Assembly: GCA_023078555.1 (NCBI GenBank) | Contig: CM041200.1 | Span: 7,417,361 to 7,481,360, forward strand | Source of the DNA: Ulva prolifera | Taxonomy: Eukaryota > Chlorophyta > Ulvophyceae > Ulvales > Ulvaceae | Direction: 5' to 3' | DNA: 64,000 nucleotides | Shown: one piece after another, positions 9,493 through 47,032 of the stretch | How the letters are laid out: each line of letters starts with the position of its first letter | Position numbering within the stretch: the stretch's first letter is position 1 | The notes under the pieces: generated by a model | The model's input: only the letters and a program-made list of their open reading frames with translations | The model's database searches: none | Told to the model about the DNA's origin: nothing | Translations under genes and position numbers: made by a program

Positions 9493-15155
<5,663 letters not shown>

Positions 15156-17396: not shown

Positions 17397-20300
17397 TCAC
17401 CGGCCGTGGCCCCGGCTTGCCGTGCGGAAGCCGTGATGGCCCGATCGCCCACCCCTCTGCGGCCGGCCCGCCGCGCCACCCCCGCGCCCCAACGGCCCCC
17501 CCGGTGCGCCCCCCCCAAACACCCCAGGCTCCGCACGCGCCCGCGTCGCCATCCGGGGGAAGTCCTGCACCTGCGGCCCCGCCGCCGCCGCCGCCGGCGC
17601 TGCATGCGGCGTGTGTGGAGCTCCCCGCGGCTTGACCCTCTCGATCGCCTCTGCAAACGCATGCACGGACCCGAGCCCCTCGGGAGTCGCCGGCGGCAGC
17701 GCGGTGACGGCGGCGGCGGCCCGGCGGACGGCGTCGAGGGCCTGCGTGGCGGCGCAGGCGTCCTTGAGTGGCCCGGGGAGGTCCGGGGGCGCGACGGAGG
17801 TCTGCAGCTCCTCCCCGACCCTTTGCAGGACGGGCTGATACGCGTTATGGGCTTGCAGGCCGGCCTGAATGAGACGTTCTTCGCCGACAAACGGAAACGC
17901 GAGCAGCCTCTGCAGCGCCATGAACGCGGGCACCTGCACACCCCGGCACTCATGTTCAGTTGTGTTGAACTTACACACAAACCGGCAAGCCACTGGGTGG
18001 GCCAAAGCCGGGAAGACGAGGTACCTGGCATGCAGGCACTCTCATTTCAGTTCCTGCCACGCCCATCGCCGGACGAAGCCGGGCGGGCCAGGCATGCGGA
18101 GAACACTTTCAGGGGAGTGTTGTCTGTGTACATGATGCACTGCACTCTACTACCACTCAAACAAGACCTCTTGCGCTTCTGGAGCCAACCCATAAGCAGG
18201 CCCTCTGACAAACAGGCCGACCCTCAGTATTAAAATAATTTTGCTGTGGCATTCAGGGGGGGCACCGCACGTCTGCGTCTGCGTCGAAGCGGGGCTTGAA
18301 GCCCGGCACGCACACCCCGCGCATCTTGAATTCCGTCTGGTTGCGGTCGTTCGGCAGCCAGGTGTTACGGCCGCCGATGCGCGTCGCGCCGGTGGCCCCA
18401 ATGTAGACGCCATCGGCAAGGCAGAGAACCTCATTGTTTCCGCCGTCGCTGCGCCGCTTGCTTACCTCGGCCGCGACATTGTTGCCGACCTCGAGCGTGC
18501 CCGCAACAAACAGCAGGTCCGCCGCGATGTGGTACCGGATCTGCATGCAGCACATACATGCATGTCTGAGGTGTGATGCGCTGCTGGCTGGAAGTGGGCG
18601 CAACATGCACACGTGCCATGCATGATGTGGCAGCGTGGGTGTGGACAGCACACGCGGTGTACATTAGCTACGCTTGCTCTGCCAACTTCATAGGCATGTC
18701 ACAGCAGAGAACCCTTCAAAAGGCTTGCATGCCACCAGTAACGCAGAACGGGCTTGCCGTAGAGCAGACGATACCATCGATAGCCATGCATGCCATGCAG
18801 GTCAACAGAGTGCAGGGCGTCGGCGCCGCACCGCATCGAAAATGCACCACATCTCCTCATGCAGCCCCCACTCGTGCACGACGTGCATGAAGTGCATGCT
18901 GGGGCGCAGGAGGTGGTAGGCGGCCAGCAGCGGCTCCGTGAGCCGCGGGACAGCCACCAGCACATCATTGGGGCCACTGGGGATGTTTGGCGGCATGCCC
19001 CCCCGCTGCTGCCGCGGCTGTCGGCGTTGCAGCTTCCTCATCAGGTTCGCCACCGGTTGAAGGGACATCTCCTGTGCACAGCCCAGACTGCGCGTTAGGT
19101 GAGGGCGGCGGAGGGTCGAGGTTATGGCGGCTGTGGCACACAGCGCGAAGGCACTACACTGAGCACATGCATTGCATGGCAGGAAAAATGGCGGTTCCAA
19201 GAAGGACCACACTTCAGGCCGACACCCCAACACATACATGCACCCAAAACACCAGCGACCAAGCGGTCAGGAACGACCGTCCTGGATCACCGTCCCCAAG
19301 CACCACGATCAGAAGAATCATATGGTCAAAGCGCTCACAACACACAAGCTCGCCACAGGAATGTGTGCTTCGGCTACACATGGAGAGCCAGGCACAGAAA
19401 ACACGCAACCAGTATTATCATCAGCAGTGCACGTGTCTTCAGACTATCGAGGGAGATGCCTATGCATCCTCCAGCACACAACACCAACACATTCAGATGC
19501 AAAAAGCACTTTGAAATTGACTTCGATGCGACAATAGTCGCGGCAGCGGGCGTACCAGGGAGCGGTGTCTCGATCGCATCTCGTTCGCGACCTCCGTGTT
19601 TGCCGACTGTCCGTACACAAGCACGTCCCCCAGTTTGCCGCGGCGGCAGTGTGCCAGGAGGTCCCGCACGCGCCGCGCAAACTCATGCGGCGTGTGCGGC
19701 CCCCCGGCGCTGCGGCCGGCCTGCTGCTGGAACCGCACCGCGGCGTCGCGATCGAACGACACACACTGTGCAGCAAAGCCAAAAACGCACATCAGGTCGC
19801 CGGGGCGGCGGCCGCGGGGGTCGTGCACAAAGCGCGCATTGATCACCGTGAACAGCTGGTGCGCGGCGGCTGCGGCGGCAGTGGTGTCCTGAGGCCCCCC
19901 CTGGCCGCTACGGGATATGCTGCAGTGCAGCACTGTCGACTGCCGCTCTTCCTGCAGCGGTGCGTTGTGGCATTGCGTCCCATCTCTGTGTGTGCCGATG
20001 TATGCATGCATGGTCGTCTGGCCAGAGCAGAGGTGCCACTGAAGTTCTATCTAAGCCTGATTCGGACAACTAAGTGGCATGTGCTGGCATGCACATGCTA
20101 CGGAGGGCAGACACGGGGATAGCCATCTGCATCTTTGCACTGTTCGCGGGAAATTCAACACGCGCAGGCGCATATCACTGATGCCGCTGGGAACTGCAGC
20201 GTACGCTCTGATGATCTGCTTGTGCTGAAGCAATTGCAAGGACCCAGGCCATCACATAGCGGAGCACCACATAACAGCAGATCATCCGCCTGGAGCTCGC

Positions 20301-20900
20301 GTTGTAGTTCGGCTCATCGGCTGCAGTGTGTGCTGGTGGTTGATCCTTGAGTCGAAGCCGGGTGTTGCTGCTTGTTGGTTGAGTAGAGTTGGTGCTCTGC
20401 CATACAACGGCCCGAGATCTTGCAACTCGTTTGCAGCATACGCACAGGCATTGTAACCACCTACTAGTGGTCCAGAGTGCGTGTGCTGAGTGGTGACTAG
20501 TTGCGCTCGAGCGCGGGGCAGATGACAGGCATGCATTGATGCATGACAGGCATGCATTGATGACAGGCATGCACAGGCATGCACAGGCATGCCTGATCAT
20601 GATCACTTGGCGACCGAGGTAGGTGCTCACCTCGAGGGCGTGGTCCAGTTTGGCCTTCATCACGAGCTCATTCGCAGGCTGCCTCACGGCGCTGCTCTGC
20701 TGCAGAGCTGCCTCGAGCTCCCAGAGGGAGCCGTGCTCGATGCCATGCTGCTCCAGCAGGAACGCCCGCACAGACTGCAGGCGGAAGCCTGCGTTGTCAG
20801 ACAGCAGGAACTTGAGCTGCGAGTAGAACTCCCGTGCGACGCAGTTCATGCTGTGGCCGGCTTGACTGAGCGTCTGTCCGAGCCGCTGCGCCTCTCCCTT
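17397..20900 (-). other. Coiled coil and SMC hinge module of the GMI1/SMCHD1-like gene
   Basis: Exon 20900-20631 encodes helices including LLEQHGIEHGSLWELEAALQ, which aligns with the SMCHD1 segment just before its hinge. Exon 19888-~19500 gives AHQLFTVINARFVHD and CVFGFAAQCVSFDRDAAVRF, the hinge first half. Exon 19071-18832 gives VAVPRLTEPLLAAYHLL and HEWGLHEEMWCIFDA, which aligns with the DMS3 hinge ([20 protein letters not shown]). Exon 18540-18316 gives VLCLADGVYIGATGATRIGG, matching the conserved DGxxI...GxxxxGG end of SMCHD1 and DMS3 hinges. Exon 17933-17397 would add a helical then Ala/Pro/Gly-rich tail. By analogy, the hinge mediates dimerisation and nucleic-acid binding. Confidence 0.84.
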
Positions 20901-23900
20901 CTGCACAGGGCCACTGCGTTGCAACGCGTCGGTGCTTGAGCTTACGCGGCAGACACATGGATTCGACTTGACCGCATCGGATCAGCATGCTAGGCGGCCA
21001 TCTCTGGATAACTGGGGCAACACATTGCCCCCACAATCGCATGCAACCGCGTTGAGTTGAATCTGTACATTTCGATTTGGTTATTTCATGAACTACATTG
21101 TGCAGGCAAGGCATGACAAGGCACCATTGGTGGTTGCATGCAACAGTGCACTTGTGGCCACTATGCCTTCTGCACCTTGTGCTATACACTGTGCAATCTA
21201 CGGTGTGACACTGTGCATGCAGCGGCACAATTCTAGTGTGACAAGCAATGATGTTCGCTGAGCACCGAGGCCGTGGCATGCACTGAATAGTTGTTGAAAG
21301 GCCATGCATGCACTGATCACATGCAGCATCTGTCTCTGTGGCTACGGGTGCATGCTTGTGGCTACGGGTGCCTCGTGGGCTTGAGAATGTCCAGTCCTGG
21401 CAAATGTGGGTTTCATATGTGGATGAACAACTTCAAGGTAAAACATACATACGTGTATAAGGTAGGGAAGCTGGAAAATTTTCGCTCATTTGCAACACTG
21501 TGCCCCACAATATGGACGAGCTGTTCGTATACGTTATAACCAAGATCGTTCGAGCATCATCTGATCAAAGCAGATACTTGAAAAGTTCAAACTTCAGGGA
21601 CTCAAGCCATCACATGGCCATGACAGAACACCAGAACTAACTACAAGGCAATGCGCCTAAACTGATCCAGTCCGTGTCGTCAAAGTCATGCATACAAAGC
21701 ACCATCCCGACTACGTGACGAGTTGTCGCCATGTACTTCAAAACTCGAGCGACGAATTTGCCCCATCTGAAATCAAGCAGTCAATTCTGTCGACATCCCA
21801 CGACCAATCCCGCGATCCTCATCCATGGAAACCGAAACATCAGCAGTGCAAGGGGTTCAAATCAAACAGGCTCAAAGCCGCACCAGATGCGCCACACGCG
21901 CAGCCCACTCCGCCCGCTCCCGCTCCCGAAGCTCCCGCATATGCTTCTCCTCCACATTCAGCCCGACCCACGACGCCCGGCCGACCTCCACGTCCTCCTC
22001 CCGCGCCTGCGGCCCCCCGGACGGCGCCGTGAACGTCACGTGCAGGGTGCACGGGCCGCAAAACGCGGCGGCGTCGGCCGCGATCTCCTCCGGCGTCACC
22101 GGAAGCGGCGCAGGCTCCGCCAGCGGCTGCACGACGAGTTGCAGCTGCTCGTCCGTTGCGGGGGAGGAGCGGCTTTTGTCGCGGGTGCATCGGAGGACGA
22201 CCTTGCCGGCGCGGCCGGGGCGAGCCTCCTCGGGCACGAGGTATGCGCCGAAGTCCTTCAGGTGCATCAGACTGCCAGCGCCCTGCACACGGCTTCGAAG
22301 TTCCCACAATAGGTCACATCACAAGAGCTTCGGCCAGTACATGGCAGAGCACCATAGACGTTACCAGGCCATGCATGCACTTGCAATTGTGCGCGTGCAC
22401 GCGGCTGCCCAGCCGAAAGCAGTGATCCTAAGATCCACGCGGTTTCACTCATTCAGCACACAATGATGCGTTTTCACACAGTGGCCCGAGCGCACGCAGG
22501 TGCATGAGGGTGTGTGTATACCCACCGTGGTACGGTCAATCAGAGACGATGATGAGCCGCTGCACATTCCCAAGCAACTCCGCAGCTCAGGGCAAAGCAG
22601 ATCTGGTAGCACACATAGGTGTCAGGCCATACTGGGTTGAGGTATCCCAGGTACAGGATTAGACTGCACGCCATAGCAACCGTGCTTTGCGCACATATAC
22701 AATGGCGCTACTGGTGTAGTACGTATGAAGCAGAGAAGCACCTCCAGGCCCTCGGGCACATCCCGCGTAAGCGCGTTGCCGCACGCGTCGCGCGCCTGTA
22801 GCAGCACATGCGTCCCCACGCGGTTCGCGCCGCGCATAAACGTGAAGAAGCCCTCCGGAGTCGCCGCCCGCGTGATGTTGCTCGGCACGACCGTCACCGA
22901 CGCCAGCACGGCCGGCACCACCCGCAGCTGCACCTTGGCGCTGGCGGAGAGTGCTTCTGGCCGCTTTGCAGCGCGCGCACAGATTGCAAGGGCCGAGTCG
23001 AAAGGATGGGAACAGAGAGCCTCCACATTGACGATGCGAGCCTGTACACGTGACGCAGGCGCGGCGTTTGTCATACACGCATAAACGGCTGTAAACCAAC
23101 ATACCACAAGGATGTCTTGCAAATCACTGAGTGAAGAACGGTTGTCAATTCTATGGCACACGGATTGAAGTCGAAGCAGGTACATCTAGTTCCAGTTCGA
23201 ACTGGATGATCAGGACACGTCAGATCGAGGCTGACCAGGGGCGGTATGAGCATGGTTGGCAGAATGGCACGTTGACGTGGTACCTTGCCATCACCACCGC
23301 AGTCATGTAATTGAGTCCGATGTGATGCTCCACATATACAGACACAATCACTTGACAGGAGCAGGCATATCCAGACTGCCAAACAGCACTGTGGACTTGT
23401 CACGGACAGGCATGTGTGTGACTTGGCAGCTGCATTCAAATGCATCAACTGGGGCACACCTTCGATAGATCCTTCACACACGGCTGAAACCGCGTTCCTG
23501 CTAGGAGTGTGGTGCTTTGGGGTGGCACCTCCACCGCAGCGGGCGCTGCAGGCCCCCGGTCGGCCGTCGCCGCGGGGGCAGGTACAGGTCGGTCATTGTC
23601 TATGACCCGCACCTTCATGTTTGCTAGCAGGTCCTTCTGAAGGCTGTCTTGCATCTGCCGCTGCTCCTTGCTCAGCGCCGTGCCTGGCTCGCTTTGCTGA
23701 TTAAGGCTGGCTTTGACAAAGACATCAGCGGCGGCGACAGCGGCGGTCGGCCGAGCGGTGCAGGCCCATGTTGAAACTGTGTTCAAACGCATCTACACGC
23801 AATGGCGTCTCAGACAACAAGTCAACGACATATGACTGCGAGGACCTGGTGGACGTAAAAAAGCGGTCAAACATAGCGCTGCTAGCACTCATCGGGGCGC

Positions 23901-26900
23901 CATGAACCCTAATCACAGATATTAAAAAAACATGTTATTGAAACAGAGCATCTGTGATTGCGCCAAACGCATGAACACTGGCATGGATACTTCTGGCAAT
24001 TTGGCATATGGAAATGGGGACCGCTGGTGCAACAAAGCAACAGCCAACAAACACATTCCATCAAGTTCGTCTTCGAGAGAGACATGCGGACACCATTCTC
24101 CTGAATGTTTCATGCAGTTGGCTGGATCAAGCAGGTCACTGGCGATAGAAATCGCGACGCCTATCACCGGCACTATTACCAACAGCATAGAAGCGGCATT
24201 TGAGATGCAGCAACGTTGGCGTGTGACCCGCACACCTGCTCAAACATCACCGTTGCCTGGCCGCCTGCAGATGCGAGGTCAGATCCGAGGATCGGCTGCC
24301 ATTGCTTCACTGTCATGTTCATGCCCTGCCTGTCCGTGTATCGGACTGGGCGGATGACCTTGGGCTGTGTCTGCGCTGTGAACTCCGGGTGTAGGGCTGT
24401 TGCGTGCTGCGGGAGCCGTGTGGCTTCAATGAACAGCTGGAATTGTTCAGTCTTGCAGGGAGGCTCGACATCAGTCAGTGTCACGCTTTGCAGCACCGCC
24501 TGCATGGCCTCTAATGAGTTGGAGGCCTTTCGAGGCTGTGATATGCCGGCGCCCTCACGCAGCAGCCTACAACACTTCTGGAGCCCCCCAAGTCAATGCA
24601 AGACCGCACACTGCGTTCGTTTCACTGGCCATGTCTCTACCGTCTGCCATGTCCCTGCCCTCTGCTGTATCGAGCAGGCTTGTTAACTCCTTTTGAGTCT
24701 CCCACGCGATCACGCCAAGGCGCGGCCGGGGCGAAACACAGCTGTCTACTATTCACCCAATCAGAATTCTACTGAAGTTGACCAATACAACGGCCGTGCT
24801 TTCACAGATTACATCAGCGGCTGTACAAGGTGCAATACATGACCACAGACAATGTGGCATGAGCCAGGCGAGAGCGGCATTACGATTACTGGCAAAAGAT
24901 CATACCCTGGTTGATCAATGCTGTTACTAAACGCATGAGGGATGTATTTAGCGGCAAGGTGTAGCGGCACGGTGAAGCGGCGCAGCGAGATGCAGTGGCA
25001 CACCTGAAGAGTAGATGCGCCATGGCGTTGGTAGGCTTCACCGTGGATTGGCAACTTTGAGAGCTTCAAGGAGTGAAACACCTTGCCCCTCTGACTACAC
25101 TTGGCCCAGAAATCCACATTCTGCAGACATCGCTACGATGTCAAACGAATTCAGCAGCTGCACTTGTCGACCGTCATTATGATCAGCGGCTTTGGCAGAA
25201 CCATACATGCTGAAAGAGACAAGGAGAAGTGCTGTAGTGAGCTAGTCCAAAGAGGCACGAGCTATGGCACGGTAGAGCTACACACTAGACTTGCAAGCAA
25301 TACTATGTTGAAGTGCCTCACTTAGAACACCGATTAGATCAAAACTCCGACTCTCTAAGAGTTTGGATTCGCAAGCCCAAACTTAAACGCCAGACGACCA
25401 ATGTGGCATAGTACTGTACGTGACACGTGAGTGTGCATGCTTGACTATCGGCATGATCCCGCAAACGACGATTCCACCACCCCAATGGCTCTACGAGGGT
25501 AGGATACGAGCAAGTCGGTGCACTGGCGATCACCGAGTCACGGATATTTCATGGAGCACCATGGAGTGGTCAATGCAGTACAAGCCGGTGACAACAGATC
25601 CAACAGCTCACCTTCCGCGCAGGTGCAGAGTTGCCAACGGCATCAAATAGGGATACAACCTGTTTGGGGACGGGGACGCAGCCAAAGTAGCTCTCTTCAA
25701 GGAGGTCACCCTCCACAAATTTGGCATCGAATGTAGTTGGCCGCCCTGCAACACTAGCCCGCCCGGATCGTAGCGTCTTCGCCGCGCCCAAACTCAATGG
25801 TGCAACCACTTCTCCGACAGGGGTGCATGACCTTTTCTAGTGGCACAGCTAGATACAATGCCTTGGTCTCGGACTCACCAACACTTTGAGCCGAGCAAAA
25901 AGTGATTTTGCTTTTGGCAAGAACCACAAACGTAACCACAAACGTATTTATGGGTGTCCATTCGCACTTGCACACATGCATTGCAACAAGTAAGGCTGTG
26001 GAGGCATGTGTAACCTACCTAGCCGTATGACGAGTGCAAGAATGTGAATGCAACATTGCCACGTCATGGTATCACACATTTCCAACGGTGAGAGCATGTT
26101 GTAGGCCTTGGCTGCTCATGCCTCTATACAAATATTGGTAGGGAGTGTTCTCAATGAAATGAGACTCACCTGTCCGCACAAAGAAGTAAGCTAAAGCCGA
26201 TTCCTCAAAAATCAGATTCTCCGGAGGAAGATCTACACAACCTACAACATAGGTTTGAGGTTGCCGGGAAGAGCAAGTCCGAACAAACCATTGAGGTGAC
26301 CTACATCAGCCATGTTGGTGCATGCACATGATCAAACGGCAGGAAGGCGGAATTTGATAGTTCAAGAGCCTGCTGGCCAACCATTATGGTGGTGTGCACT
26401 TGCCCAATTTCCGTAATGCAACACAGGTGGAGGCGCCTGCATAATGAATGCGGACAACAACAAAGACCTGGCCCCATACCTTCGGCATCTTTGGGGCTTT
26501 GGGCGCTCATATACATCTGGATGTAGAGACCGTCATCATCGCATCTACGCTCTTGTGCCATGTCGATGCCACGGCAGCGCATGATCATGTCTTTCATCAC
26601 ATTCTTTGAACCGTCCCACCTTTACATTGCATTGGCAGTCATCTGTGCCAATGCATGCATCTTGCTCACAATTTTGCACTCATGGCCTTGATAGCAAATC
26701 AATGAGTCTTTGGGATGACATCGGCATCAAGGGGCAAATGCACACTACTGCGCCAACTCCAAGTATGCAACAAAACTTGAATCTAATTGGCCGGGCGTAG
26801 ATGCATGGCGTGAAATGCACCGGCGCACAGAGCTTTTGATACGCAACCACACTTTCATGCAAGTCACAAGTGACGAGCTCCCCTTCGGGAGGCTCTTACG

Positions 26901-32900: not shown

Positions 32901-35900
32901 CAAACACGGAGACGGAGACACTCAGGCCATCGGACGGATAGTTGAAGCACACGGTCAACTTGTATGTTTGATGTACCTTATGTACATGATCTTATTTGTG
33001 GCTAACATTGGCGGAAACGTAGCTATGCCGGTAGACTTACGAGCTGCACAACACACATACTCAACTATCCACAACAATTCATGAATAAGGAAGCAAATTC
33101 CGTACCTGAACATCTGCAACTTGAAGCGTCCTTGACGCTTCTGAACCTTGTCCGCGCGTGGTTTGCTCAGGAGCACCGGTCAGCAAGGAATGGCGCACAC
33201 GCACCAGAAGTCGGTATGAGCCTGGATCAAGGCGTTGGTCAAGCCCCCGGACACGAAACACTTGCGCCCCCTTTGGTGGCATGGGGTCAAGAAGCTTGGG
33301 GCAAGGATGATTCTCATGGATGCTCGTCCAAACAAAATCGGATTTTGACTCACGAGCCGGCATTGCCTTCCATGCATCCTCCTAAATACATTCGGCACCG
33401 CTCACTGGCGATGATCATACATGTGAGATATGCCATTGCCATTGACGTGGTTTATGCCATTGGGATTACTTGAAGAAGTCGTATGCACCATTGTTCCATC
33501 ATGCAAAACAAAACATTGAATGCACACATCTGCAAACACCACATGCCATGAGACACACTTTTCTAACATGCAAATCTAGCTAACGCCAATCATTGTCAAG
33601 CCGTTTACCCGGGCAATTTGGATTCCATAAAAATGCCGACTCAAGCACCACATGCAGCATGACATATTTATTTGACATGGAGATTCATCTTCAGCCGGTG
33701 TTAGACGAGGCGAGCCGTTCCCACGCGAAGACTTGCCCTTCTACACATCGTACCACCGGATGTTGTGCATGTGAATCTCGAAATATTGCAAGCAATCATA
33801 AGGACGCCGCATGAAAAAAAAACCACCCTTATGCCCGCGTGTGCGGACACCTGAATAGCACATTAGAAAAGAAAAGCGTCCTACTTACATAACTTATGAC
33901 GTGGTCCATGTTGAAGCTTCAACAATCATAATCACACCTACATATGCATACATGTAGAGCAACTCTCCACACACAACACATGGGCTTGACCAAGTCATGA
34001 TTTGGAAGATTTCCTCCTACCGAAGCGCAATTCAAAAAACTTTTCGATTGATACAATGTATGATGTCCACATCACACCAATGATGTTTTAGCTACGTATG
34101 TACACATGGTATGGCCAAACATCCGGCGGGTCATGAATGGTGCATTGCATTCCATATGCATGATCAGTATACAATAAATAAGCACCAATGAATCTCATTA
34201 TCTGAATTAGTATGCATGGCGCGACCTCAACTCGATACACATTGCACAGTTGAAATTTCACACTCATCGAAATGTAGCTTTGGATTCAATGCCACACGCT
34301 TAGCCTAAGGTCGCTTTCGACATTTGTAGCATGTGGAAACAACCACATGCCATGCGCACCTTTGTCTTGCATTGCAGCCCGAGCCCCACTTCATAAGGAG
34401 CCAGTGTGAAGTGCGTGTTGATGTTGACAAACTTTCCGGGACCGTTCAGTAACCCTGGAAATGACGACAAATGCGGTCGCGGGCATCCTTTTCCAGCGTC
34501 AGCCAAGATGGCTACCATGATGTCGTCCAGCTTGCTACTACGATATTCAAGCATACTTGGCATGTCATCGTCGGCTCTACCACTCCTCGGCCAAAAGCAA
34601 AGTGCTAAGCCACACGGATTGTGGGCTTGTATTTCCTTGTAATAACTGCAATGTTGGCGGATTTACATTTGAAAACCTCAAGAATATTGCCTTGGCGAGT
34701 ACGTGGCAACAACAAGTTTGGCAATCGCAAACACCATCGCAAGAGTGAACATCGCACCGCCGATACTCGTCCACTATCTTGGTGGAAAGGTCTTTGGTTG
34801 GTTGCTTGCTTAGTGCTGCTTGCATGGACGCCATAGTATAAAAATCTTCGGGACGTACTCGAGATATCTCGCAACACAATAACATCTCCACATCCGAGGT
34901 TTCAAAAATTGCACCATTTAACAATATCCGCCGAAATGTCACCTACACATCATTCAAAGCACACATCAACAATAATCATGCACAATATGTGGAACTATGT
35001 TGTACACAATTTTACCCAACACATCAAGGCAACGTGACATGAGGCCGTGTATCAGAGTGGGGGCAACGCACACATCGATCTGCTGCCCTTACGGGTTCTC
35101 CATTGCGAGATGTAGGCTCCGTGAACGCATGTATGACGCCCCATGCTTCCTTCTTCCGTGCCACCAAGTTGCCATGAGGTGCTTCACTCAAGTCAAAGTT
35201 TTTTGGCACCTTGATAAGGTCACCTTGAATGAACTTGGCTTCACCATTGCGGGTAGTGCGAACGCAGGATCTACATGACAATGCATTGAGACTTGCAACT
35301 TTTGTGCTCGCATGCATGGGAGTGTGCCCATGGAGCTGAGCAAGTTTTATGAAAAGAAAAAGAATACATTGGGGGCTAGTGCAATGCGCCACATCACCGA
35401 GTGGAAAGTGGACTAGCTCAGAGTAGACCATACTACATGCATGTGGGGTGCCTATAGATATGTGAACGGAGATGTAGATATTGCAAGAGCGCAGGTCAAC
35501 TCAATCAAGATAATCACATTGGCCATGTGGAGGTAGTCACATTGCTCCATAGTTGGTGTCAACAACAATGAGATTTTATGTATATTGCCAGCGAGTATGC
35601 CGGCCATGCGGCCATCACCAAAGGGCGATGCCGGCTAACACCAAAAAACACCGGTCACACTACATAACCCTTATTTATTCACGTTATCAAACTTGCATGT
35701 GGTATGCATGCACGGATATGCAAGGGCCGAGGTACACAGTTTTTCATACCTGAATACATTGAGACCTAGTTCTTTCGTCCAGGGGTGCTTGTCAAACTTG
35801 TCGACGAGATCCATTTGCGAGTCCAGCTCTCGTATGCATGTTGCCAACCATATGGCGGCATCAAAGCACACCCAAGCTTTCTCCGACTCTTGGGCTGGAC

Positions 35901-38900
35901 CACTCGCGTTCTCCTTAGCCACTTGCTCGCGAAATTTCTTTGAATCGTCCGTGCGCCCTTGCAATTCCAGCAATCGCAACGCGAAAAATGGTTGCGTATA
36001 GCGCAACCGAGAGGTATGAAAGATGCGATTGCACTTCTTCAAGTCTTGTAGATTTTGGAATGTATCCGGAGCAATTGTTTGCTTTGTCTTGCTTTTCTAC
36101 ACGCAAATTGGTGTCCAGCTCACCACAATTCAACCACACCTGAGAACATCAAAACTTTATGCGGTGTATGAGAAGAAACACATGAGCAATGCAAATGCAC
36201 GCAGCACGATCTCTGTCTCCCCATAGACCCTTGCATCATCGCTCTCATAAACAACCATTGCGCATGGATTGACTTGAAGTTAGTGCAAAACTCTATACTT
36301 GTTTTGAGACAGTATTGCGCCCGAGGTCGCCAACGAGTTGCAAACCCCTAACATTTTGAAGCACACTCTCACCACTCCAAAATGTTTGTAGGCAAAAGAA
36401 ATGCAAGCTCCACACCTGAGCACTCCGTCCCTCAAACTTCTCACTCGGCAAAAAGCGGGATGTCACCTTGTCAGACGCTGCGATGCTCTTCCTACGTTTG
36501 TGTGGTGGCAGCGATGGCATGCGACCTTCATCGGACGAATACGACTTCCAATCTGAGAACGACATATGCCCGATGATATGTTCACGCGAGACGGATGACA
36601 ACTTTCTGTTTGCTTCTTGGAGAATTTTCTTTTTGGCATCCCCATCCCTTGCCTTGAATTTTTCGGTGGCATCTCTACCTGTAAGGACCTTGTACAACTT
36701 CGGAAAGTGTGTTTTAAGGATGGCCTGCACATTTAAGTAGTATCATTTTAAGCATTTTGGTAGTGATTGCTGTAAGCAATCTGAATCCGACGACATGATT
36801 TGCCACACTTGCGCAAATTGAAATCCAATGCACCAATGATCAATGGAACCGAAGGATTTGAAATCTATATTCCCATGGAACTCTCAACACGACGTTTCCT
36901 GTTGACAGCACTTTTGAAAACATTTGGCATGTACACGCTTCACATGGCACTTCAGGCGATGCAAGGTAGTGAGCATGCGAATTCGCAACATGTTTCTCTT
37001 GTGCATTTTTGATTGACCATTCTCACGTCGGGGATAGCAAGCAGATTTAAGCAAGAAATCTATATCTATATCACGACGACAAGCGCAATGACAGGACACA
37101 TGTATTCACAACCGGTCAGATCAAGACATGATTATCAATCAGGCATGCATGAAGAAAAGTTGGATGCAACACACCAATAGGGCATCGTTTAGTTTGAAAA
37201 AAGGCAACAATGGAGTGTTGGCATTCGATGATTTATCGACCTTGCTAAATGCAGAATAGCGCCCATTCCACCACACAGCCAAGCGATTTTGCTCTGCTGG
37301 CAGCAACGGGTATCGGGTAGCCCCTCGGAGATCGTCTTCATTCACTTTGCCGCGCCATGATCTGCGCTTACCCTGAGGAAAGCCGAACATGTCGGGGATG
37401 CCCTGCAATGTGAAAATCTTAAGACGAGCAAGCAACCGCTTACATGGTGAAAGGACCATACTCTAGTATAGCACAAAGATTCCTTGAAACAAAAAAGCCA
37501 CATCGATCCGTAGACTCAAGGGACTCGCATAAATACATTGATTGTCACGCAAATTGTTGCTTGAAAGAAGGACCGACTTACCAGGCGAGACTGATTTTTG
37601 GGCACATATTGGAGTACGCCAACGATAGGCAAGTGACCTTGTCCCCATGCCGCATGTGTGCAAGCAAAAGTGAAAGATTGCAGTTCTTGCAACAAATCGT
37701 TAGCCGGTGCATGATGAGCCACTTGCAACGGCGTCTTCAAGACGCGAATGGACCGAGAAACCTCATCCTCACAAGCTGCTGAATAGTCCACCAATTGTGC
37801 TTGGAGCGTTGGCCAACCTTTCCATGGTTGATCATTCAAACTACATATGTCGAAAAGAAATGGTGTCAGCCAATACATCGAGATGAGTGTAGTACTAAAT
37901 GTCTACGGCAACCGCAATCATCGCGGTTCCAGCGGATGTGACGGATCTCCGCATCGCCATTGAATTCACTCGACACAATCCAAACTAGACAACAATTTTG
38001 AAACATAAATCATAGCTTTGGCGCATGCAATGATGAAGAGAAATTCGTCACGCAATCTAGCACAATGATTGCATATGGGAATCGGCGCGGTGTTTCAAAG
38101 GAGGTATAATGTTTTTTTGGATGAGCTAGAAACCATGGCCTTGCACATACATCCCAACACATCCATGCAATGCACCGCAATCTAGCAAAGACTATACCGG
38201 AATGTGGTGGAAGACGGCAAGTATATAACTTGTTAAATGAAGCAAGGGGGCACATCGATGTACATAATCCAGACCTGCAATGTATGATGTTAAGTTGTAC
38301 ACAATGCATGATAAGCGGGCACACCAAGAATCTTACCAGCGATGTCTTAGCGCGGGCACGCGATCCTCTCCAACACTGAATGCCTGGCATAATTTCTCTG
38401 AAAGGCCATGCCACTCTTTCCTTCGTGAAAAGATTTCGGCATCGGACCCACAATCCCACTTGTCCACGATCGTCTCATCTGGAAGCAGATCCCATGGGCA
38501 CCTGCTTCGAACACCGTCATGGAAAAACACATGAAGCTTCATGGCTGTTCGTGATATCATCTCAAGATTCTCTTCTTTACGCGCCCGCTTGCCCTTGTTG
38601 AGACGAGCTTCGATGCGTTCTTCATCATGACCAACTTGTCCATTGAACGTTTTCATGAAGTTGCCTGAATGTCCTAGAAAGTGATAATATGTCATTTTCA
38701 AGGTGTTGCACACTCGGTGGAAGCCATTGAATATGATGTCCTCCGCGCCGGCTTGGTGTAGGTCGAGCAAAATGAACGCAGTAAAGCTGTGGTTTCCCTA
38801 CATATCAGAGCCGGTCGTGTGGTTCTCAAATGTACCACTCATGATGGAAACAACATGTTCCTTACATGAGTGCTTTGGGAAAATGTTGCCCCGCGAACAA

Positions 38901-41900
38901 AATACACATGGCATGCATTCAATCGAGATATTCATGCATAAGAATGCAGGATCCAAGACACATGGTACCTTGCATGGCACGTCTCATACATATTGGTTGA
39001 CATCACAATGAATCTAGGATGGAAATCATGTTCAACATGTCTACATGTCGTTTGAGTTCACCTTATCGTCGCCATCTCTTGGTTCACTACAACCCACCCT
39101 CTCCACATGACTCAATATGCGTGGTAAGATTGATGTAGATGTTGCGCCAGGGACCTTGTGCAAAGCCGTCCGTGTCCACTCGGACATGGGCATGTACTCC
39201 GGCCCATCTGAGCCCTGTATCTAGTGATGGTGGTTGCAATCTCAAGCGCAAGCACGTCTACGCAAATGATGTGTCATAAGGTGTACGAGATAGATCTGCT
39301 CATGCCTTTGGTCTGCCAAGCTAGGCAAAGTGGTGACAAGCATGTATTATGCAATGGCACCGTTTTTGGAGTTATCTTCTTAACACCCTAATGATGCACA
39401 TTGCATTGCAATTTTGATAATGTGCAGCGTGTGCGTGCGTAGGAGGATCGCGTCCATGCTCTCATCATTCTAGAATTCATTATATGTGGCCACACCATAT
39501 ATGCGATATTATCCCATGTTATGTGAAACACTCGAAGCCCTCAGGCCTCAAGGTTTTGTTTTGCATGCATTGGCAACGTAGTGGCATGTATACACATGTT
39601 TTGTAATATGAAAGGAGGTCATGATGAGCAGCCTCTTGCCATGCTCAAACATGGTTGTGTGCCGCACATGATATCGGCGTCGTAGCAACACATGCACGTG
39701 AGTGACGAATCTCAACCATGTACATGTAACAACATACTTTGCAACAAATGCACTGGAAGCAAATTATGCATTGTGTAGTTGCCGGGTGTGCATGCCGACG
39801 CGGCATATCAAGTCTTGCCGAGTTTGAAACATTGCAAAGCATCGTCAAGAGTTGAATTGAGTATATAGTTTATTATCATCGCCTACTCAGCTAGAGCGAG
39901 AACTCGCACGATTCCGAACAAATTTGAGGCCGTGCATGCAATCATAAAATCAACAATGGCATATGGCACCACGCTAGAGTGACGACAACACGCATTTGTT
40001 GTGCATACGGGAGTATCGCATCAAGTATGCAACTTGCAAAGGTGCTGCCAAGATGAATGTGTTCAATACATATGGCGGGGGAAAGACCTCATCAGGAGAC
40101 AGACTAGCTCGGGAAGTCGACTCCAGTGTTGCTGAGAACTTGTCGGTCCACTGATGTCTGTCTATAAGGGTCTCCTTGACATTGGTCGCGCCGAGAGGAC
40201 GGGTTAAAATGTACATGTATGACCCCAGGTCAGACATAACCTTGGTGCATCCTTCGCCAAATGCAGACAAATCGTCATCTGTGAGGAATGGCCGTTTCAA
40301 CTCTTCTCTGATCATGCCTTCTTCTGAACCATGCGTTTGCGCAAGCTACACCAAGCAAGCACACACACAACGTTAATAACGTAATGCATTGTCTTGAAAT
40401 ACATGATGGTATATATATATTAATGCGCTATACCAATTGGGCCCATCATCCATAACAACAAAGAGTGTTGGCCGTATCACGCAAGAGATACTCAAAACGA
40501 TTGCCATTCTAGCGAAAGCCCACAATAACAACGCATCACAGATCATCAATGCAACCGTGGTATATCCACGACATCATCGCCAATCATGGATCGAAGACGC
40601 AATCAACAGCATACGCATTGCAATGCTGCAAACCCCAAAGCAACACATCTGTCATACATCACGCGAGTGTGCATGAGTTGTATGTTCATGCGAATGATTG
40701 GTCTCGCCTCGTTTGCACGTGATCAACGCAAGCGAGGCTCCTACCTTGACCACCATCCACACCCTACAACGTTGATATAGTAAACTTGCTAAAGATGTGG
40801 AACATGTAATCATAGTACAATGACAAATTGATATGTGGGCCCATTCATGAATATTGCAATGCATATGAATGCATAGCCAGCACAGGCCTAGAGACTTGAT
40901 TAAATATTTGTGATGTAACAAAACGCTCTGAAATCAAAGCACACGTTTGGTACATGAGCCATGACGTATGATGCCGCCATCGGAGCACACCTGTTCGTTC
41001 ATCCTTTTGGGAACTTGGCCGCGGCGGGCTATGGGCGAAAAATCCTTCATGCCAATGCCCGAGTCGACAATTGCAATGTATGACAGCGTGGACCGATTCA
41101 TTACGGCATCTTGGGGGCCAAGATCCTTACGACCGACAAGTTTCTCTCTCCCCATGTAGACATCCACAACGCGTGGTCGGTCCTCGGGAACACTCATGAG
41201 CGCTGTCAACGAGTTGTCGATGAATTCCGAAATCTGCAAATACCCGCGTTTTGATTGATACAAGCAATCGCATAAGAATTCTACGCCCACTAGTTGCTTG
41301 CACGGCCGATCAAAAATTGACATGTCAAGCGCACAGATTGAGAGACAATGCGTCAACATGTGTTGAAGGAAGGCAAGCCAAATGGGCATCTACTTTTGTC
41401 ATGTTGAACACCAAACTCAACGAATGACAAATGGGATGAGACATGCCAATTCTAGAGTGTCATGGGCTCATTTATTGTCGCGGGACTGAAGCGTAACATC
41501 GACCGAGACACCACCCACAACACCCAGCAACTGCCTAGCGGACCACCGCATTAGACGAACACATCTCGCAGAGCAACACAGAAGAAGTTTGGCCAGTATT
41601 AGAGACCGGTAACAAGTTCGTGCATGGTTTCGAAGCCGAAAATGCACAAATCAATCAAACTGCTCCGCCATGCTTGGGCAAGGCCAAATTGGCGACAATT
41701 CTCGTCTCCCCAAGCGTGATGAAACACTAGAATTGTTCATTCCGCAGAAATAGATATCAGAGTGATACCCAAACTATCGCAATCGTAGTTTGCGCGGCCC
41801 AAGTGGGCCCAACCGTTTGCAAGAGTGCATGACCCCCTCATCTCACATCGCATTGTCCGCACACTACTCACATTGTCATTGTTTGGAAACACAGACAACG

Positions 41901-44900
41901 TTGCATGCAATAGCACTTGCTGCATTTGTCTATGCCCGTTTCCTCTGCAGTAACACAAAGCGCACACTCTTTTAGCGCCAACACGTGGCAATGTCATGTC
42001 ACGATCGCAGTCGATGACACAAACTTGACAACACGCGGTGTCCGGCCGCGATCTCTGTGCAGCTGCGAAGCGCAGGGTCGCACCGAAAAAATGGCGGGAT
42101 CGACACCCGCTTGGCCTGCAGTCTCATTTTCGGTCGCAGTGCGGAGATTGACTTTCACCTCATGCATCTCCACGCGCTCCTTGCTAAACATGTCGCTGTG
42201 GCGCAACAGCACCTCGATGGGGTGGTTCACGCTGGCACCGGCTCCGGAACCGCTAGAAGCCTCTTCCCGCCACTTTTGCAGCCGCGACTTGGACACAATG
42301 TGCCCCTGCAACAGCGGTTGGCCGTGTTGGTGGGCCAAAAAGCAGGAACAGCAGTGTAAACCTAGAATCGTATGTGTGCGCACAACGCACAACTGAACTT
42401 GCATAGCTAAGGCACGCTGTGTGGCAACAAATAGGACATTTTTTAGGCGTTAACAATGCCGTTCAAGACATTGCTTCAAACATAACATTCGATGAGTTAG
42501 GTACAAATGACAGACGCGGATGCGTTGTCCGGCATGGTCGGACTGCAAGGCTACCTTGCAACGACACGTATTACAGATTCATGACGTCGCACAGCCAAGT
42601 GCCACATCATGCTTCAGTCTTGTTTGCTCGGCATTGAGCCGATGATATCAGACCGCCTTCATTGGATACTACTTCTAGAGCAAATGGTCGTACAATATGC
42701 AAGATGCGTGGCCAAAAAAATGGCCCGGGTACTGCTGTTGCGGCCTCCATGCATACTTGGCGTATGTTGCATTGTTTGGTCCCTTTGCAGCATGTTTTGG
42801 ACTCCCATGCTGATACTGGACGTGAATGTTTGCAACTGGTGTATGTGATCGGGCCCCGCGACCCGCCACCAATAAAGTGGCCAGCGTTGAGCGATGGATC
42901 TTGCGGGAGCAGGTCGTGCAACGCGTGCCAGCGTGCCCGCATGACAGCCATCCGCCACAGGAGCCCTTTCGACATCGTGCGCCATTTGCACTGCAAAGAA
43001 CGGCCCAATGCCTAAGCCATGCCCCATCGGCATCCGGAACAGTGTGGTGGCAATTCACAGTGCACCATGGGTATGCATTCGGGCCGCCTCGAGTGTTAAA
43101 ACATGCACATAGGCTCACATGTGCAGTATGCGAACGTGCCGATGCTGTATGCATGTGCTCCGTACCGATGCTGTATGCATGTGCACTGCAAGGCAGCATG
43201 TACTGGCCTGTGGAGGTGAGAATGTGACAGCTGATTTGCCCAAACACAAACAAATGCAACATTGCAGACGAGCGTTGCAAGCACCGGTGAATTATAGGTA
43301 CACAGATGGGATAGCCACACCACAATTCACGTCCGCAGGTGCACCAAACGATTTCAAACGACGTCCAGCACAGCAGTCAGCTAGGGCTTTGCAGCATGTG
43401 CATCCCAGCCAAACCATGTGCCACGTGCCCCCACATGCCAACTATTCACAGATGCATAGACACATTGGGCGTTTGTGATAAATCTCAAGACACACGGCAT
43501 TACATCAATTTTCAACTGGATAGTCTGGTCCTGATGCAGGAACTGGCACAGGCACCAAAGCATGCATCACTTTGCTACCCAGTTGCACCCAGCTTCCACA
43601 TGTCACCCAACATCATCCAAACGGCTACGCTCCAGCGACAGCACTCCAGCGACAGGAATTTATCATTTATAGCATATTTCTTTACGTTTAATCACTACCT
43701 GTGCCTGCAGCTGTCCAACGGCCATACACTGCCTCGGACGCTGTACTACAGCAGTTGCATTGTACGGCTTGGAGCGCACCTCAGCTGTACACAGCTGGAG
43801 CTGCAACGAATTGGGGCTGTCCAGACTCAATTGCCGGATTGAAGTCTGCGGGATCGCCTGTTCGGCAACAGACAGGGATTGAACCAGCCTGGCGTGGAGT
43901 TTCTCGCGGCTGTTGCATTCGTTGAACTCTTTCGTCGAGATAGCAACTGCCATCTACAGGAGAAGTCGTGGTGACATGTTCAAGTTCGTGTGTTTATACC
44001 GGCGAAGCGCATCGGGCCTGGATCAAAATTCTGGCCGAAGCAAACCTGGGAAGTAGGTATATCGAACGCCTTCCGTCTCCATTCAGCATCTTCAACTTCG
44101 ATGGAGAAGTAGGTGTGTGCATCACCCATTTCTGAACCAGAAGGCCTAGATTCGGGTATGGTAAGCTAAGACGTCAATCGCTATCGCCGCACATACAGCG
44201 CAAGGACACTGTATTGCGCGCACGCATACATCAGCGTTGCAAACTATGCGCATCAGCAGGTTTTACATTGAGACACATTTGCCTGCGCCAGACTCAGCGG
44301 AGAGTGTGATGCGCAGGGCACAAGCTGCCGCTTTTGCAGTGTAAGCATGTCACAGATTGTGGTGAATTATTTGCAACATCCAAGTCTCAGGTGTTTGGAA
44401 CAGTCGATGCTTTTACTAGCGATCGAGGCTGTCCAGCTCTATTGCGCACGTTGTGCCCATTTAAGAAGTTGTACCTGTGGCCACACACGGCACATGGCGT
44501 TGGCACAGGCAAGCAAGACAAGCTTGGCATAGCATGCAACAAAAGCGGAGATTGAGCGACCATAGTTTACAGTACGTGTAAGATGATGGAAATTTCATTG
44601 CGCGGGGCGGTGTCATTGTTCGCCTCACGATGAAAAGCTCTGCAACTGCAACGCGACTCGAGCCAGCATACTGGCGATTTTTTTGTGTGATCTCACGAAA
44701 ACTACTCTATTTTCACACTGCATAGGGATACTGCCATGGTCAGACCACGAACCCGTTGGTGCGCGAGCATGTGTTTCAAGAGGTCCACAAGATGCCCCGT
44801 CGGATACCAGGCTTCTGAAAACTCTGCCAGAATTTGCCCGGATGTCTCAGTGACCCTCTTACCTGCGCATAAATGCGGAATTCTGCCATGTTTCTTTTCC

Positions 44901-47032
44901 TGCCTTCCTTTGTTTCAGGGGCCAGCTGCTACTGATTGTAGACACAGTACGTTGCAAGCTTAAGCCCATCTGGTTTCGAGCCATGTTTGACGATTAAGTT
45001 TCTCATGATCTGCCCCCATCACATTGCACCAAATTCACCGCCCACAATATTTGGGCAGGGATGCAGGTGCAGTAGCAGATCTAGTGTCTTGATTGACACC
45101 AGATGTACACTTACAGCACCTGTGCCCAAGTTACATTGTTTCAGATGCTGCCTTTGATCCAAGCTGTCGCCACCTGCGCTGCACTTCAACATGTGTAAGG
45201 CGGAAGCGTCTGCTCTGTAAAATTATTCCAAAAGATGTCGACCGATGGCAACACGAGGGTACTTGTTGTCTATTATCCACAACAGACACAACATGCCCAG
45301 ACAGCAGCTGAGCTGTTATTCTTTCTCGACGCTAACAGTTCCAAGGGCGTTGGCTTCCTGGAAGTATTCAATTCCGCCAGGCCCCTTGACAGGGACGTTC
45401 CCTGCAGTTCGTTGTGCCACACATCTCGTCAGCCAGCGCAAGTCCTGTGTGCTTGTCGGGTGCACAGAGAAAGCTGCCGGGCCGTTTGGAATTGCTCCAC
45501 GCTGTGCTGGGACTAGCTTCGATGCACCAAATTTGTAGGCCAAGTCTTTGGTGTTGGGAACAGTCGTGATGTCCCCATCATCTTGCCTGATGAGAGTGCA
45601 GCCGGGATCTGCTTCAGGGAGCGGTGCCATCTGAGCCTGCAAAGCAACGGTGATTGACATCTTACGATGCAAGGCGATTGGAATGGCCAGATGCCTGTCC
45701 AACACAAAGGACCTTGAGGTTGTCCTCTGTTTTGGCCTCGAATTAGCAATTGGTTGGGCATGGAGGGTTTAAGAAATCAGGCTGTGTGACTAATCCTTTC
45801 CAGTCTCTCGTCCGTTCGCATGCCGACATAGCAGATAGTGCTCAAGATCAAGTACGCAGGCACGTGGTCATGTTGCAACAATTCAGAGGTACTTGCAACA
45901 GCACAGAAGCGTAGAGAAGGCTGGTCTGCACCCATGAGCTGGCAGTCGATGAGACATGCTCGACATACATCCATTGAAGCAGATCTGGACCTGCTTGACC
46001 AAGTCAATGAAAGCACTGTGCATGGTCAGATGTACCGGATGTTCCTAGCAGATCTTCAGGAATAAGCATTGTCAGCACCTGAGAAGCTCAGACATGTCGA
46101 GCACAGCAGAGTATACATCTATTGGGCCGCACATAAAGCATGACTTACTTGGCGTTCGGAACAGTTGAGCTGTGCACTGCCCACGGAAAATTTACGTTAA
46201 CAGCGCTGTGTGCAGAAGCACAAAGGCCAGACTCACCTGCTGCCGCTCCCAGTCGATCGGCCGTGTTGTGTACTCTGCAAAGCCTGGCTCAAATTTTGAT
46301 TCGGGGCGTGAGAGCTGCCATTGGGTTGTGCTGTGCAGCTTGCTGCACATCGTCTCGTATTCGGCAGCGCTCATGCGGCCTGGCACATGTGAGAACCTGC
46401 CCTCCGACCACATTATCTTTCCTTTTTTGAAAGGCACATTTCCAGCGTCTAGGAGGTGAGCACTGAACTTCCCATTTGCCAAGATAGGCTCCCCAGCAAT
46501 GTGTGAATCCAGCTTATGGTTCTGCAGCATGAGGGATCCGGTTCCTGCAGCTGATAGTCGAAGCAAGTTCGGGCTCACCCCGGCACAACCCAATACTGAT
46601 GCTGCTGCCTCGACAATGTGAGTCGTATTCGTTCAGACTCCTGTTCCTGGCCCAGCATCTGTTGCAAACACTGCAGAGGGGAGACCTAATACAGATTCAA
46701 AATCGGATATGATCCCCGGTCGGTCGCACCGTGCAGTCGTATCGGTTCCCCGGCTTCCAGTCATGGCCTTCCTTGGTGATGTGTGGGCAGTCAATCACTC
46801 GGTACTCACCAGCAATTAGCTTGCTGGTTTCTGTGCATGGCTGCTCAACAAAACCCACCATCTTCTCCCCACTCTTATAAGTGAAGTTTGACCGAACAGT
46901 GGTGCCTTCGTCATCCCCCAAGTGCATGGCACGACCATCCCAAAAGACAGTGCGGGCGGGAGGGGCGTCGCCCGTGCGGAGGCACAATCCTCGTTCCTTC
47001 ATCCGAGCTTCAAGAGCCGCATTATCTTCCAT
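17397..47032 (-). CDS. GMI1: GMI1/SMCHD1-type non-canonical SMC protein (GHKL ATPase, Ig-like repeats, coiled coil, SMC hinge)
   Basis: A single gene of about 30 exons over 29.6 kb. Supported exons: 47032-46730, 46521-46237, 45636-~45350, 43953-43699, 42305-42159, 41233-40991, 40345-40088 (or 40070), 39214-39062, 38797-38337, 37840-37582, 37402-37175, 36724-36416, 36139-36124, 36044-35750, 35270-35093, 34942-34758, 34576-34360, 33381-33106, 31101-30742, 30526-30230, 29824-28362, 26619-26480, unresolved 25.6-25.95 kb, 24535-24236, ~23790-23460, 23041-22742, 22282-21884, 20900-20631, 19888-~19500, 19071-18832, 18540-18316, 17933-17397. Almost all join in frame. Family members (vertebrate SMCHD1, plant GMI1, ATPase-less DMS3) are nuclear proteins of chromatin silencing or DNA repair. 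The start is an ATG at 47032. The last exon is less certain, since reading through 18316 meets a stop near 18254. A small exon near 41.3-42.1 kb is probably missing. Confidence 0.87.
20521..20596. repeat. GACAGGCATGCA short tandem repeat
   Basis: Imperfect tandem array built from GACAGGCATGCATTGATG and CAGGCATGCA units, ending in the palindromic GCATGCCTGATCATGATC. It lies in an intron of the GMI1/SMCHD1-like gene, just past the donor of exon 20900-20631. GCATGC-type palindromes are frequent across the window. Confidence 0.8.
26930..27300. repeat. Three decayed copies of a ~150-base tandem repeat
   Basis: The word CGGAGCGC followed by GC(A)GCCA/AGCC, TGGCC and AGGTGCA(A/T)CG recurs at about 26939, 27082 and 27241, with similar flanks (for example TCTGTGGCGGAGCGC twice). 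The units are diverged and of unequal length. They lie in the AT-richer intron between exons 29824-28362 and 26619-26480 of the GMI1/SMCHD1-like gene. They could be an old satellite or relics of a small transposon. Confidence 0.6.
28362..29824 (-). other. Long 1.46-kb exon encoding Ig-like repeats of the GMI1/SMCHD1-like protein
   Basis: 487 codons without interruption, far longer than the 140-460-base exons around it. The acceptor is GTATGCAG and the donor is GG then GTGCGA. The sequence has repeated beta-rich units with motifs such as GFGVRLVDHYGFPASIVEST, QPLSIELWLQDAAGNRIDA and IQDVQIFLQGEDGLPIDV. These resemble the D-x-x-G-N turns of the Ig/filamin-like repeats filling the middle of SMCHD1. 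A basic patch, KHAQHIRKRKG, could be a nuclear localisation signal. Neighbouring exons 31101-30742 (LRVLDKWGNHLTDKR) and 23041-22742 (LLQARDACGNALTRDV) carry the same kind of unit. Confidence 0.82.
31201..32846. mobile_element. Non-autonomous DNA transposon, copy A (1646 bp), with 8-bp target duplication
   Basis: The ends are inverted repeats beginning AGGGGGGTGGGCACTCGGG on both sides and extending about 95 bases with few mismatches (for example GGGAACGCGAGCACC, GAACGCTCT, CTATA). It is flanked by a perfect 8-bp duplication, CCACATAG, at 31193-31200 and 32847-32854. No transposase-like frame is visible inside, so it is probably non-autonomous. Eight-base duplications are made by hAT, P and the KDZ (Zisupton-type) superfamilies; the long inverted repeats are unlike typical hAT ends. 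It sits in the intron between exons 33381-33106 and 31101-30742 of the GMI1/SMCHD1-like gene and supplies most of that intron's 2.0 kb. Confidence 0.9.
36416..41233 (-). other. ATPase module of the GMI1/SMCHD1-like gene (GHKL core and transducer)
   Basis: Exon 41233-40991 has the GHKL N-box ISEFIDNSLTAL (Glu, Asp, Asn for Mg-ATP) and the G1 box DSGIGM. Exon 40345-40088 has FGEGCTKVMSDLG in the place of the SMCHD1/MORC G2 loop, where the Gly-Gly-Lys form is usual; here it is Gly-Cys-Thr-Lys. Exon 39214-39062 runs into 38797-38337 to give SFTAFILLDL, which matches the SMCHD1 transducer (SFTAVVITGV as I recall it), followed by a charged helix-rich region ending ETIVDKWD. Exon 37402-37175 has NRLAVWWNGR, matching the WNGR segment of SMCHD1. 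The order of elements is that of SMCHD1, so the module looks intact apart from the G2 change. Confidence 0.85.

Follow-up and report, generated by a model that had tools for sequence, protein, structure and literature searches.

A probable second, strongly diverged SMCHD1/GMI1-type gene in the green alga Ulva prolifera

The window analyzed here is a 64,000-nucleotide stretch of the Ulva prolifera genome (assembly GCA_023078555.1, contig CM041200.1, positions 7,417,361 to 7,481,360 of the forward strand), and positions given below are counted within it unless a contig is named. At 17397 to 47032, its minus strand carries what is probably a second SMCHD1/GMI1-type gene, large and strongly diverged; this photosynthetic alga also keeps a canonical copy on contig C6. 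An original prediction made from the letters of the window had placed a complete ATPase-to-hinge protein here, in what looked like an algal genome. The latter view was borne out by 38 matches to chlorophyll a/b-binding exons in the genome, as expected of a photosynthetic eukaryote.

A Viterbi gene finder, seeded with long open frames and self-trained on the window, recovered a chain of 31 exons that runs from an ATG at 47032 to a stop at 17397 and encodes 3,158 amino acids (aa), reproducing both gene ends of the original prediction; 22 of its 30 introns are in phase 0. Because self-training can be circular, we added a second model that takes no training from the window and relies solely on comparing average protein composition with the local base composition. 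This composition-only model scored 126.0 on the minus strand versus 11.8 on the plus strand, with scores of 6.9 to 11.0 in eight second-order Markov resamples (1.5-kb blocks) and 16.6 to 57.7 elsewhere in the window. The model agrees on the start at 47032 but ends at 17196, and 16 of its 27 exons coincide exactly with members of the self-trained chain; exons 5, 7, 25, 26, 28, 29, and 31 are missing from it and other boundaries are altered, with nearly all of exons 24 to 31 absent or changed. A third model, trained on the codon usage of the C6 gene, scored 289.2 on the minus strand, 103.5 on the plus strand, and 8.3 to 25.0 in six resamples. Nine of its 15 exons are identical to members of the 31, and it picks out mostly the GC-richer exons of the 3' part, the stop at 17397 included. 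The exon chain, both ends included, is real minus-strand coding sequence, with single boundaries uncertain; every part of it is backed by at least one model not trained on that part, and the whole chain is backed by none of those models.

The alga's canonical gene on contig C6 (G000:C6, ~722700 to 706500, minus strand) provides the reference for much of what follows. With hand-corrected splices, its protein matches three Pfam models, namely, PF22899 (SMCHD1_S5; 8.5e-31), HATPase_c_3 (9.5e-12), and SMC_hinge (2.5e-5, first half of the model), and a search of the genome with PF22899 gave one match, at G000:C6:719097-719285 (E = 9.1e-8), near a HATPase_c_3 match. Its ATPase-S5 part aligns to SMCHD1 with a local score of 601 (P ~7e-46), and its hinge aligns to those of SMCHD1 (P ~3e-7) and DMS3 (P ~1e-6). 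Judged by its predicted parts (UBL, GHKL ATPase, S5, immunoglobulin [Ig]-like signatures, a helical-looking stretch, and hinge), it is a clear canonical SMCHD1/GMI1 gene with both ATPase and hinge. Since this canonical gene is present and no UBL is recognized in the window gene, the most fitting interpretation of the latter is a diverged second copy; an earlier view of the window gene as the GMI1 ortholog of this alga was abandoned when the C6 gene came to light. The two genes would share the GHKL motifs, the Ig-type signature (four in each), and the order of parts, and they differ in that the UBL and the Pfam-recognizable ATPase, S5, and first hinge half of the C6 gene were not found in the window gene. 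Pattern searches for further relatives gave 16 matches to exon 8 of the window gene in viral contigs and 72 to the C6 ATPase in genome contigs, none of which was confirmed.

The family assignment is supported by the predicted GHKL ATPase in exons 7 to 15. Exon 8 contains motif I as EFIDNSLTAL, with the Glu at aa 497 (codon 41227-41225) and the Asn at aa 501, and motif II as IAIVDSGIGM, with the Asp at aa 551 (codon 41065-41063); motif III follows in exon 9 as LSAFGEGCTK (FGEGCTK from 40261). A motif I-to-II pattern, composed with exon 8 already in view, has a single match in the window and none in 100 resamples. PMC6620310 names Glu147, Asn151, Asp184, Thr320, and Lys525 of SMCHD1; the Glu, Asn, and Asp are retained in the window gene, and the Thr and Lys were assigned only by visual comparison.

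The significance of colinear alignments was estimated by shuffling residues inside exons (150 to 400 shuffles per run). Against SMCHD1, exons 7 to 15 reached z values of 7.5, 8.15, 8.9, and 7.6 in four runs at a gap cost of 11/0.5 and of 4.8 to 8.0 at other gap costs, and the observed score was unmatched by shuffles in all runs. At 11/0.5, the controls gave -0.75 (reversed SMCHD1), 0.8 (MORC3), and -0.2 (the alga's own Hsp90), and the hand-corrected C6 protein gave 5.3. Exons 8 and 9 alone scored 7.3 against SMCHD1, 6.7 against hand-corrected C6, 0.9 against MORC3, and 1.3 against Hsp90 at 11/0.5; the corresponding values at 11/0.2 were 6.6, 4.6, 0.7, and 2.2 (12 of 300 shuffles). In local alignment of the ATPase part with SMCHD1, 3 or 4 of 500 shuffles were equally good, and when a two-sequence (SMCHD1 plus C6) ATPase profile was run over the 1,428 open reading frames (ORFs) of the window, the top two were those of exon 10 (E = 0.77) and exon 8 (E = 8.2). 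These comparisons show that the predicted ATPase resembles SMCHD1/GMI1 and not MORC3 or, for the most part, Hsp90, and the GHKL boxes of the original prediction are upheld by motifs I to III together with the SMCHD1-type similarity of exons 7 to 15. Membership in the MORC family, which has the GHKL ATPase in common, was rejected on the score against MORC3, the sole MORC protein compared.

Downstream of the ATPase, an Ig-type signature ([VILMF]x[VILMFA]xDxx[GD]N, chosen after the proteins had been read) occurs in exons 18, 20, 22, and 25, that is, 4 times versus 0.064 expected and in 0 of 2,000 shuffles. It is also found four times in the C6 model and, in a looser form, once in the part of SMCHD1 tested. 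Exon 20 aligned with the Ig stretch of C6 at z 3.2 (1 of 150 shuffles). An AlphaFold prediction for exon 20 alone, made without relatives, was unusable (mean predicted local distance difference test score, 34.8) and left the Ig fold unconfirmed. The repeated signature, post hoc as the pattern is, supports a predicted array of Ig-like units, as first proposed.

The C-terminal exons are where the original prediction had seen a complete DMS3/SMCHD1-like hinge. Exons 27 to 30 can be aligned by eye onto the hinges of DMS3, SMCHD1, and C6, and with hand-chosen splices at 11/0.5 the C6 hinge gave z 3.1 (5 of 400 shuffles), SMCHD1 1.5, and DMS3 0.5, compared with 0.1 and 0.9 for two canonical SMC proteins of the alga's own genome and 0.3 to 0.6 for reversed sequences. 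At 11/0.2, the values were 2.3 (C6), 1.85 (one SMC), 1.4 (SMCHD1), and 1.05 (DMS3), so that neither gap cost put a canonical SMC hinge above that of C6. Taken from the unedited model, the hinge still reached z 3.2 (6 of 400) in colinear alignment with C6. A three-sequence hinge profile was equaled by 1 of 1,000 shuffles, a lobe-2 profile placed the ORF of exon 30 joint third among the 1,428 in the window (E = 7.5), and exons 27 to 31 scored z 2.5 (4 of 150) against the SMCHD1 hinge. Local alignments gave P ~0.2 for DMS3, 0.05 to 0.08 for SMCHD1, and 0.01 to 0.035 for C6 (hand splices). Across 66 comparisons of exon groups with targets, the three highest scores fell in architectural order (ATPase/SMCHD1, 8.9; exon 20/C6 Ig, 3.2; exons 27 to 31/SMCHD1 hinge, 2.5). 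A search of the alga's own genome with the hinge half returned five matches in the window gene itself and one on C6 (E = 0.136), and at E 0.001 the window gave no PF06470 match. An SMC-type hinge in the C-terminal exons is suggested; its completeness was not borne out. The model ends (17397-18024) in a basic Gly/Arg-rich, RGG-like tail.

No UBL or strap was recognized at the other end of the protein. Exons 1 to 3, 4 to 7, and 6 to 7 gave z values of -0.96 to 0.30 against the UBL of SMCHD1 and of C6, with C6 versus SMCHD1 as a positive control at 13.7; the UBL-plus-strap criterion was taken from human SMCHD1 and may not be a requirement for GMI1. For the N-terminal ~470 aa, encoded by exons 1 to 6 (42025 to 47032), no match was obtained with any reference compared, and exons 1 to 3 have ~100 codons each.

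Several results weigh against a second SMCHD1/GMI1-type gene. Nothing relevant was returned when single exons and spliced pieces were searched against Pfam, NCBIfam, and PDB sequences (only PI3K_P85_iSH2, 0.094; FliJ, 7.8; and a photosystem chain, 0.15, were listed), and the profile hits to ATPase and hinge that the original prediction had named as support did not appear. In the ATPase part, the score against hand-corrected C6 fell to z 3.2 at 11/0.2 (2 of 300 shuffles), the uncorrected C6 model gave no signal (local P ~0.59, colinear z 1.5), and the SMCHD1-plus-C6 profile gave the spliced region -0.3 bits, equaled by 39 of 2,000 shuffles. By these alignments, exons 8 and 9 supply most of the ATPase signal, and since they reach z 2.2 against Hsp90 at 11/0.2, part of that signal would be general GHKL similarity. 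For the transducer, likeness is seen in exon 12 (WWNGR from 37273; candidate switch Lys at aa 924, 37195-37193, placed by eye), which scored z 2.0 alone; exons 12 and 13 together were null (z 0.3), and PF22899 matched none of the window gene pieces, its genome search finding C6 only. A transducer is no more than suggested, short of the SMCHD1-like one first proposed. In the hinge, the lobe-2 profile was equaled by 35 of 5,000 shuffles, the unedited model gave a local P of 0.12 against C6, and DMS3 was null in local and colinear alignment. Spliced protein-to-DNA alignment with free introns was also null, the three real queries doing no better than 25 shuffled versions of each, because splicing freedom overfits. 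The full architecture of the original prediction was accordingly not sustained, with hinge and transducer suggestive only, UBL and strap not found, and no relevant database match.

These weak or null hinge tests, together with an hhalign probability of 0.4% for the single sequence against the three-sequence hinge profile, are what would be expected if a diverged SMCHD1-type ATPase and Ig part were followed by an unrelated helical, low-complexity tail. We regard that alternative as rather unlikely, given the C6 hinge score set against reversed controls at the same gap cost, the full-hinge profile, the score of exons 27 to 31 against the SMCHD1 hinge, and their colinear position. Loss of function in a duplicated gene, with divergence due to relaxed selection, would account for window pieces that lack any Pfam match whereas the C6 copy matches three models, and for the unrecognizable UBL and strap; it seems improbable in view of a frame that stays open over 31 modeled exons, an amino acid composition far above chance in the composition-only exons, and the retained motif I to III residues. 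It is most improbable that a canonical SMC1-6 or MORC gene was misread as SMCHD1-like: although one SMC hinge from the alga's own genome came to 1.85 at 11/0.2, the ATPase separated SMCHD1 from MORC3 and Hsp90 (7.6 versus 0.8 and -0.2), the C6 hinge separated from both SMC hinges at 11/0.5, and GHKL motifs are present in exons 8 and 9.

The window locus may also hold two adjacent head-to-tail genes, an ATPase-plus-Ig gene ending at 28328 and a gene of Ig, helical, and hinge-like parts starting at ~26.6 to 25.7 kb, which would be a split-up form of the GMI1 type. Two-gene models outscored the one-gene model by 6.8 (cut at 28300) and 10.3 (cut at 27700), the exon 20 donor is weak and closely followed by a stop and a TGTAA (28324), base composition shifts between ~20 and 32 kb, and C6 codon usage picks up mostly the 3' part. 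However, all of the 15 cuts tried lay between -4.4 and +10.3 relative to the one-gene score, and this scoring does not discriminate because each gene is given a stop bonus and charged a start cost, both set arbitrarily. TGTAA occurs at 0.54 per kb here and is found near neither the stop at 17397 nor the end of the C6 gene, the long gap after exon 20 is partly a 620-base dispersed repeat, Ig signatures stand on both sides of it (exons 18 and 20 versus 22 and 25), and the domain order matches that of the C6 gene. Scans for TGTAA/AATAAA and for bacterial-type promoters did not settle the gene number. We hold two genes to be unlikely, though deserving of real weight; one- and two-gene models fared about alike, which also counts against a single second copy. 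More doubtful still is that a GMI1-type gene was split in place, giving this alga separate ATPase and hinge partners, as a parallel to MORC6-DMS3 in plants, beside an intact canonical copy. The repeat in the gap (26865-27484) has many copies arrayed ~800 to 860 bases apart on contigs C7, C8, C3, C1, and C6 and is satellite-like.

Compared with human SMCHD1, the probable second copy shares the motif I Glu and Asn, the motif II Asp, the motif III glycines, and, by eye, the candidate Thr and switch Lys, and it would follow the same order of ATPase, transducer, Ig, helical stretch, and hinge (transducer and hinge being only suggested). It is longer (3,158 versus 2,005 aa), lacks a recognizable UBL or strap, and has a suggestive hinge. 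In Arabidopsis GMI1 (At5g24280), one protein combines a GHKL ATPase with a C-terminal SMC hinge, and DMS3 has no ATPase (PMC5651269); the likeness to GMI1 is by that description only. A DMS3-type gene, with a hinge and no ATPase, was rejected for the window, as exons for an ATPase are found upstream in the same orientation, a judgment that would change with two genes. PMC4607528 excludes long or ATPase-bearing GMI1-like proteins from a land-plant search for DMS3 and confines DMS3 to angiosperms; PMC6624907 names Chlamydomonas in a DMS3 figure legend, and PMC4628070 cites the plant work. The ATPase-plus-hinge form is already known in the plant lineage (PMC5651269, PMC4607528). Because Arabidopsis GMI1 already has it, the window gene says little about the origin of DMS3, and the suggestion that it would bear on that question is further weakened by the canonical gene on C6. 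In the literature searched, we found no report of two SMCHD1/GMI1-type genes in one alga, which is not proof of absence.

Table 1. Exons of the self-trained model and other features of the window locus (z, exon alone against SMCHD1)
Feature	Position	Strand	Remarks
Exon 1	46730..47032	-	ATG 47032; N-terminal region, aa 1-101; composition-only model has same ATG, other donor
Exon 2	46237..46521	-	N-terminal region; other acceptor in composition-only model
Exon 3	45337..45636	-	N-terminal region; composition-only model agrees
Exon 4	44863..44928	-	Short, N-terminal region; composition-only model agrees
Exon 5	43780..43953	-	Doubtful; self-trained model only, absent from composition-only model
Exon 6	42025..42305	-	N-terminal region, no SMCHD1 UBL/strap match; other donor in C6-trained and composition-only models
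Exon 7	41872..41944	-	Doubtful, short, precedes ATPase; absent from composition-only model
Exon 8	40991..41233	-	GHKL motifs I and II; composition-only model agrees; z 4.53
Exon 9	40105..40345	-	GHKL motif III; composition-only donor 40009; z 4.07
Exon 10	38337..38673	-	Thr at aa 698 as candidate for motif IV (by eye); composition-only model agrees; z -0.47
Exon 11	37582..37840	-	ATPase-to-transducer stretch; composition-only model agrees; z 0.59
Exon 12	37175..37402	-	Transducer-like WWNGR, candidate switch Lys; composition-only model agrees; z 2.04 (9/200 shuffles)
Exon 13	36416..36724	-	Candidate transducer C-terminal stretch; composition-only model agrees; z 1.60 (12/200 shuffles)
Exon 14	35750..36096	-	Composition-only model agrees; z 0.49
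Exon 15	35074..35270	-	Post-transducer likeness by eye only; composition-only model agrees; z -1.07
Exon 16	34360..34454	-	All three models
Exon 17	33106..33381	-	Self-trained and composition-only models
Exon 18	30742..31017	-	Putative Ig-like unit, LRVLDKWGN; self-trained and composition-only models
Exon 19	30230..30526	-	Self-trained and composition-only models
Exon 20	28362..29767	-	468 aa, putative Ig-like units, LWLQDAAGN; self-trained and composition-only models
In-frame stop	28328..28330	-	Just past exon 20 donor; ORF 28328-29971; end of upstream gene if two genes
Dispersed repeat	26865..27484		Intron 20; at least 206 genome matches
Exon 21	26480..26619	-	Weak; composition-only model keeps 26480-26516 only
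Exon 22	25612..25745	-	Ig-like signature VSLFDAVGN; all three models
Exon 23	24236..24535	-	All three models
Exon 24	23460..23792	-	Shorter forms in C6-trained and composition-only models
Exon 25	22742..23041	-	Ig-like signature LQARDACGN; C6-trained model agrees; absent from composition-only model
Exon 26	21884..22282	-	Last Ig-like stretch and onset of charged helical-looking stretch (by eye); C6-trained model agrees; absent from composition-only model
Exon 27	20631..20900	-	Helical-looking, leads into candidate hinge lobe 1; C6-trained model agrees; shorter in composition-only model; donor may sit ~35 bases further on (by eye)
Exon 28	19556..20017	-	Candidate hinge lobe 1 and linker; shorter in C6-trained model; absent from composition-only model
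Exon 29	18832..19071	-	Candidate hinge, start of lobe 2; C6-trained model agrees; absent from composition-only model
Exon 30	18266..18540	-	Candidate hinge lobe 2; C6-trained model agrees; shorter in composition-only model
Exon 31	17397..18024	-	Helical-looking stretch and Gly/Arg-rich tail, stop 17397; C6-trained model agrees; absent from composition-only model

Elsewhere in the window, the minus strand has an ORF with an isochorismatase domain at 56954-57778 (Pfam, 7.2e-16) and one of the tryptophan/tyrosine permease family at 59296-60654 (Pfam, 1.2e-30). A perfect CA dinucleotide run of 52 copies lies at 13215-13318, and a 21-base tandem repeat lies at 13612-13721.

By analogy with SMCHD1, the window protein would hydrolyze ATP and associate with chromatin. 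It might dimerize via its C-terminal hinge, and ATP binding would pull the two GHKL heads together, with the Ig-like stretch serving as spacer in a clamp that would grip chromatin or DNA in silencing or break repair. As the UBL and strap are not recognizable, the heads may dimerize in a manner unlike that of human SMCHD1, or the protein may pair with the canonical C6 protein. Matches to Piwi (6) and to DNA methylase exons (8) occur in the genome, and roles in silencing and in repair are therefore both possible.

Proteins of the SMCHD1 type are usually treated as the products of a few known genes (SMCHD1 and GMI1), and a canonical plus a diverged copy in one alga would show that the family has duplicated. 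If the window gene is such a copy, ATPase motifs can persist while Pfam-level similarity vanishes, and profile searches would then undercount the family. Algal comparisons on the ATPase-plus-hinge architecture and on the origin of DMS3 should take the C6 gene, rather than the window gene, as their reference, and the two copies side by side would offer a natural test of which parts, such as the UBL and the hinge, are dispensable.

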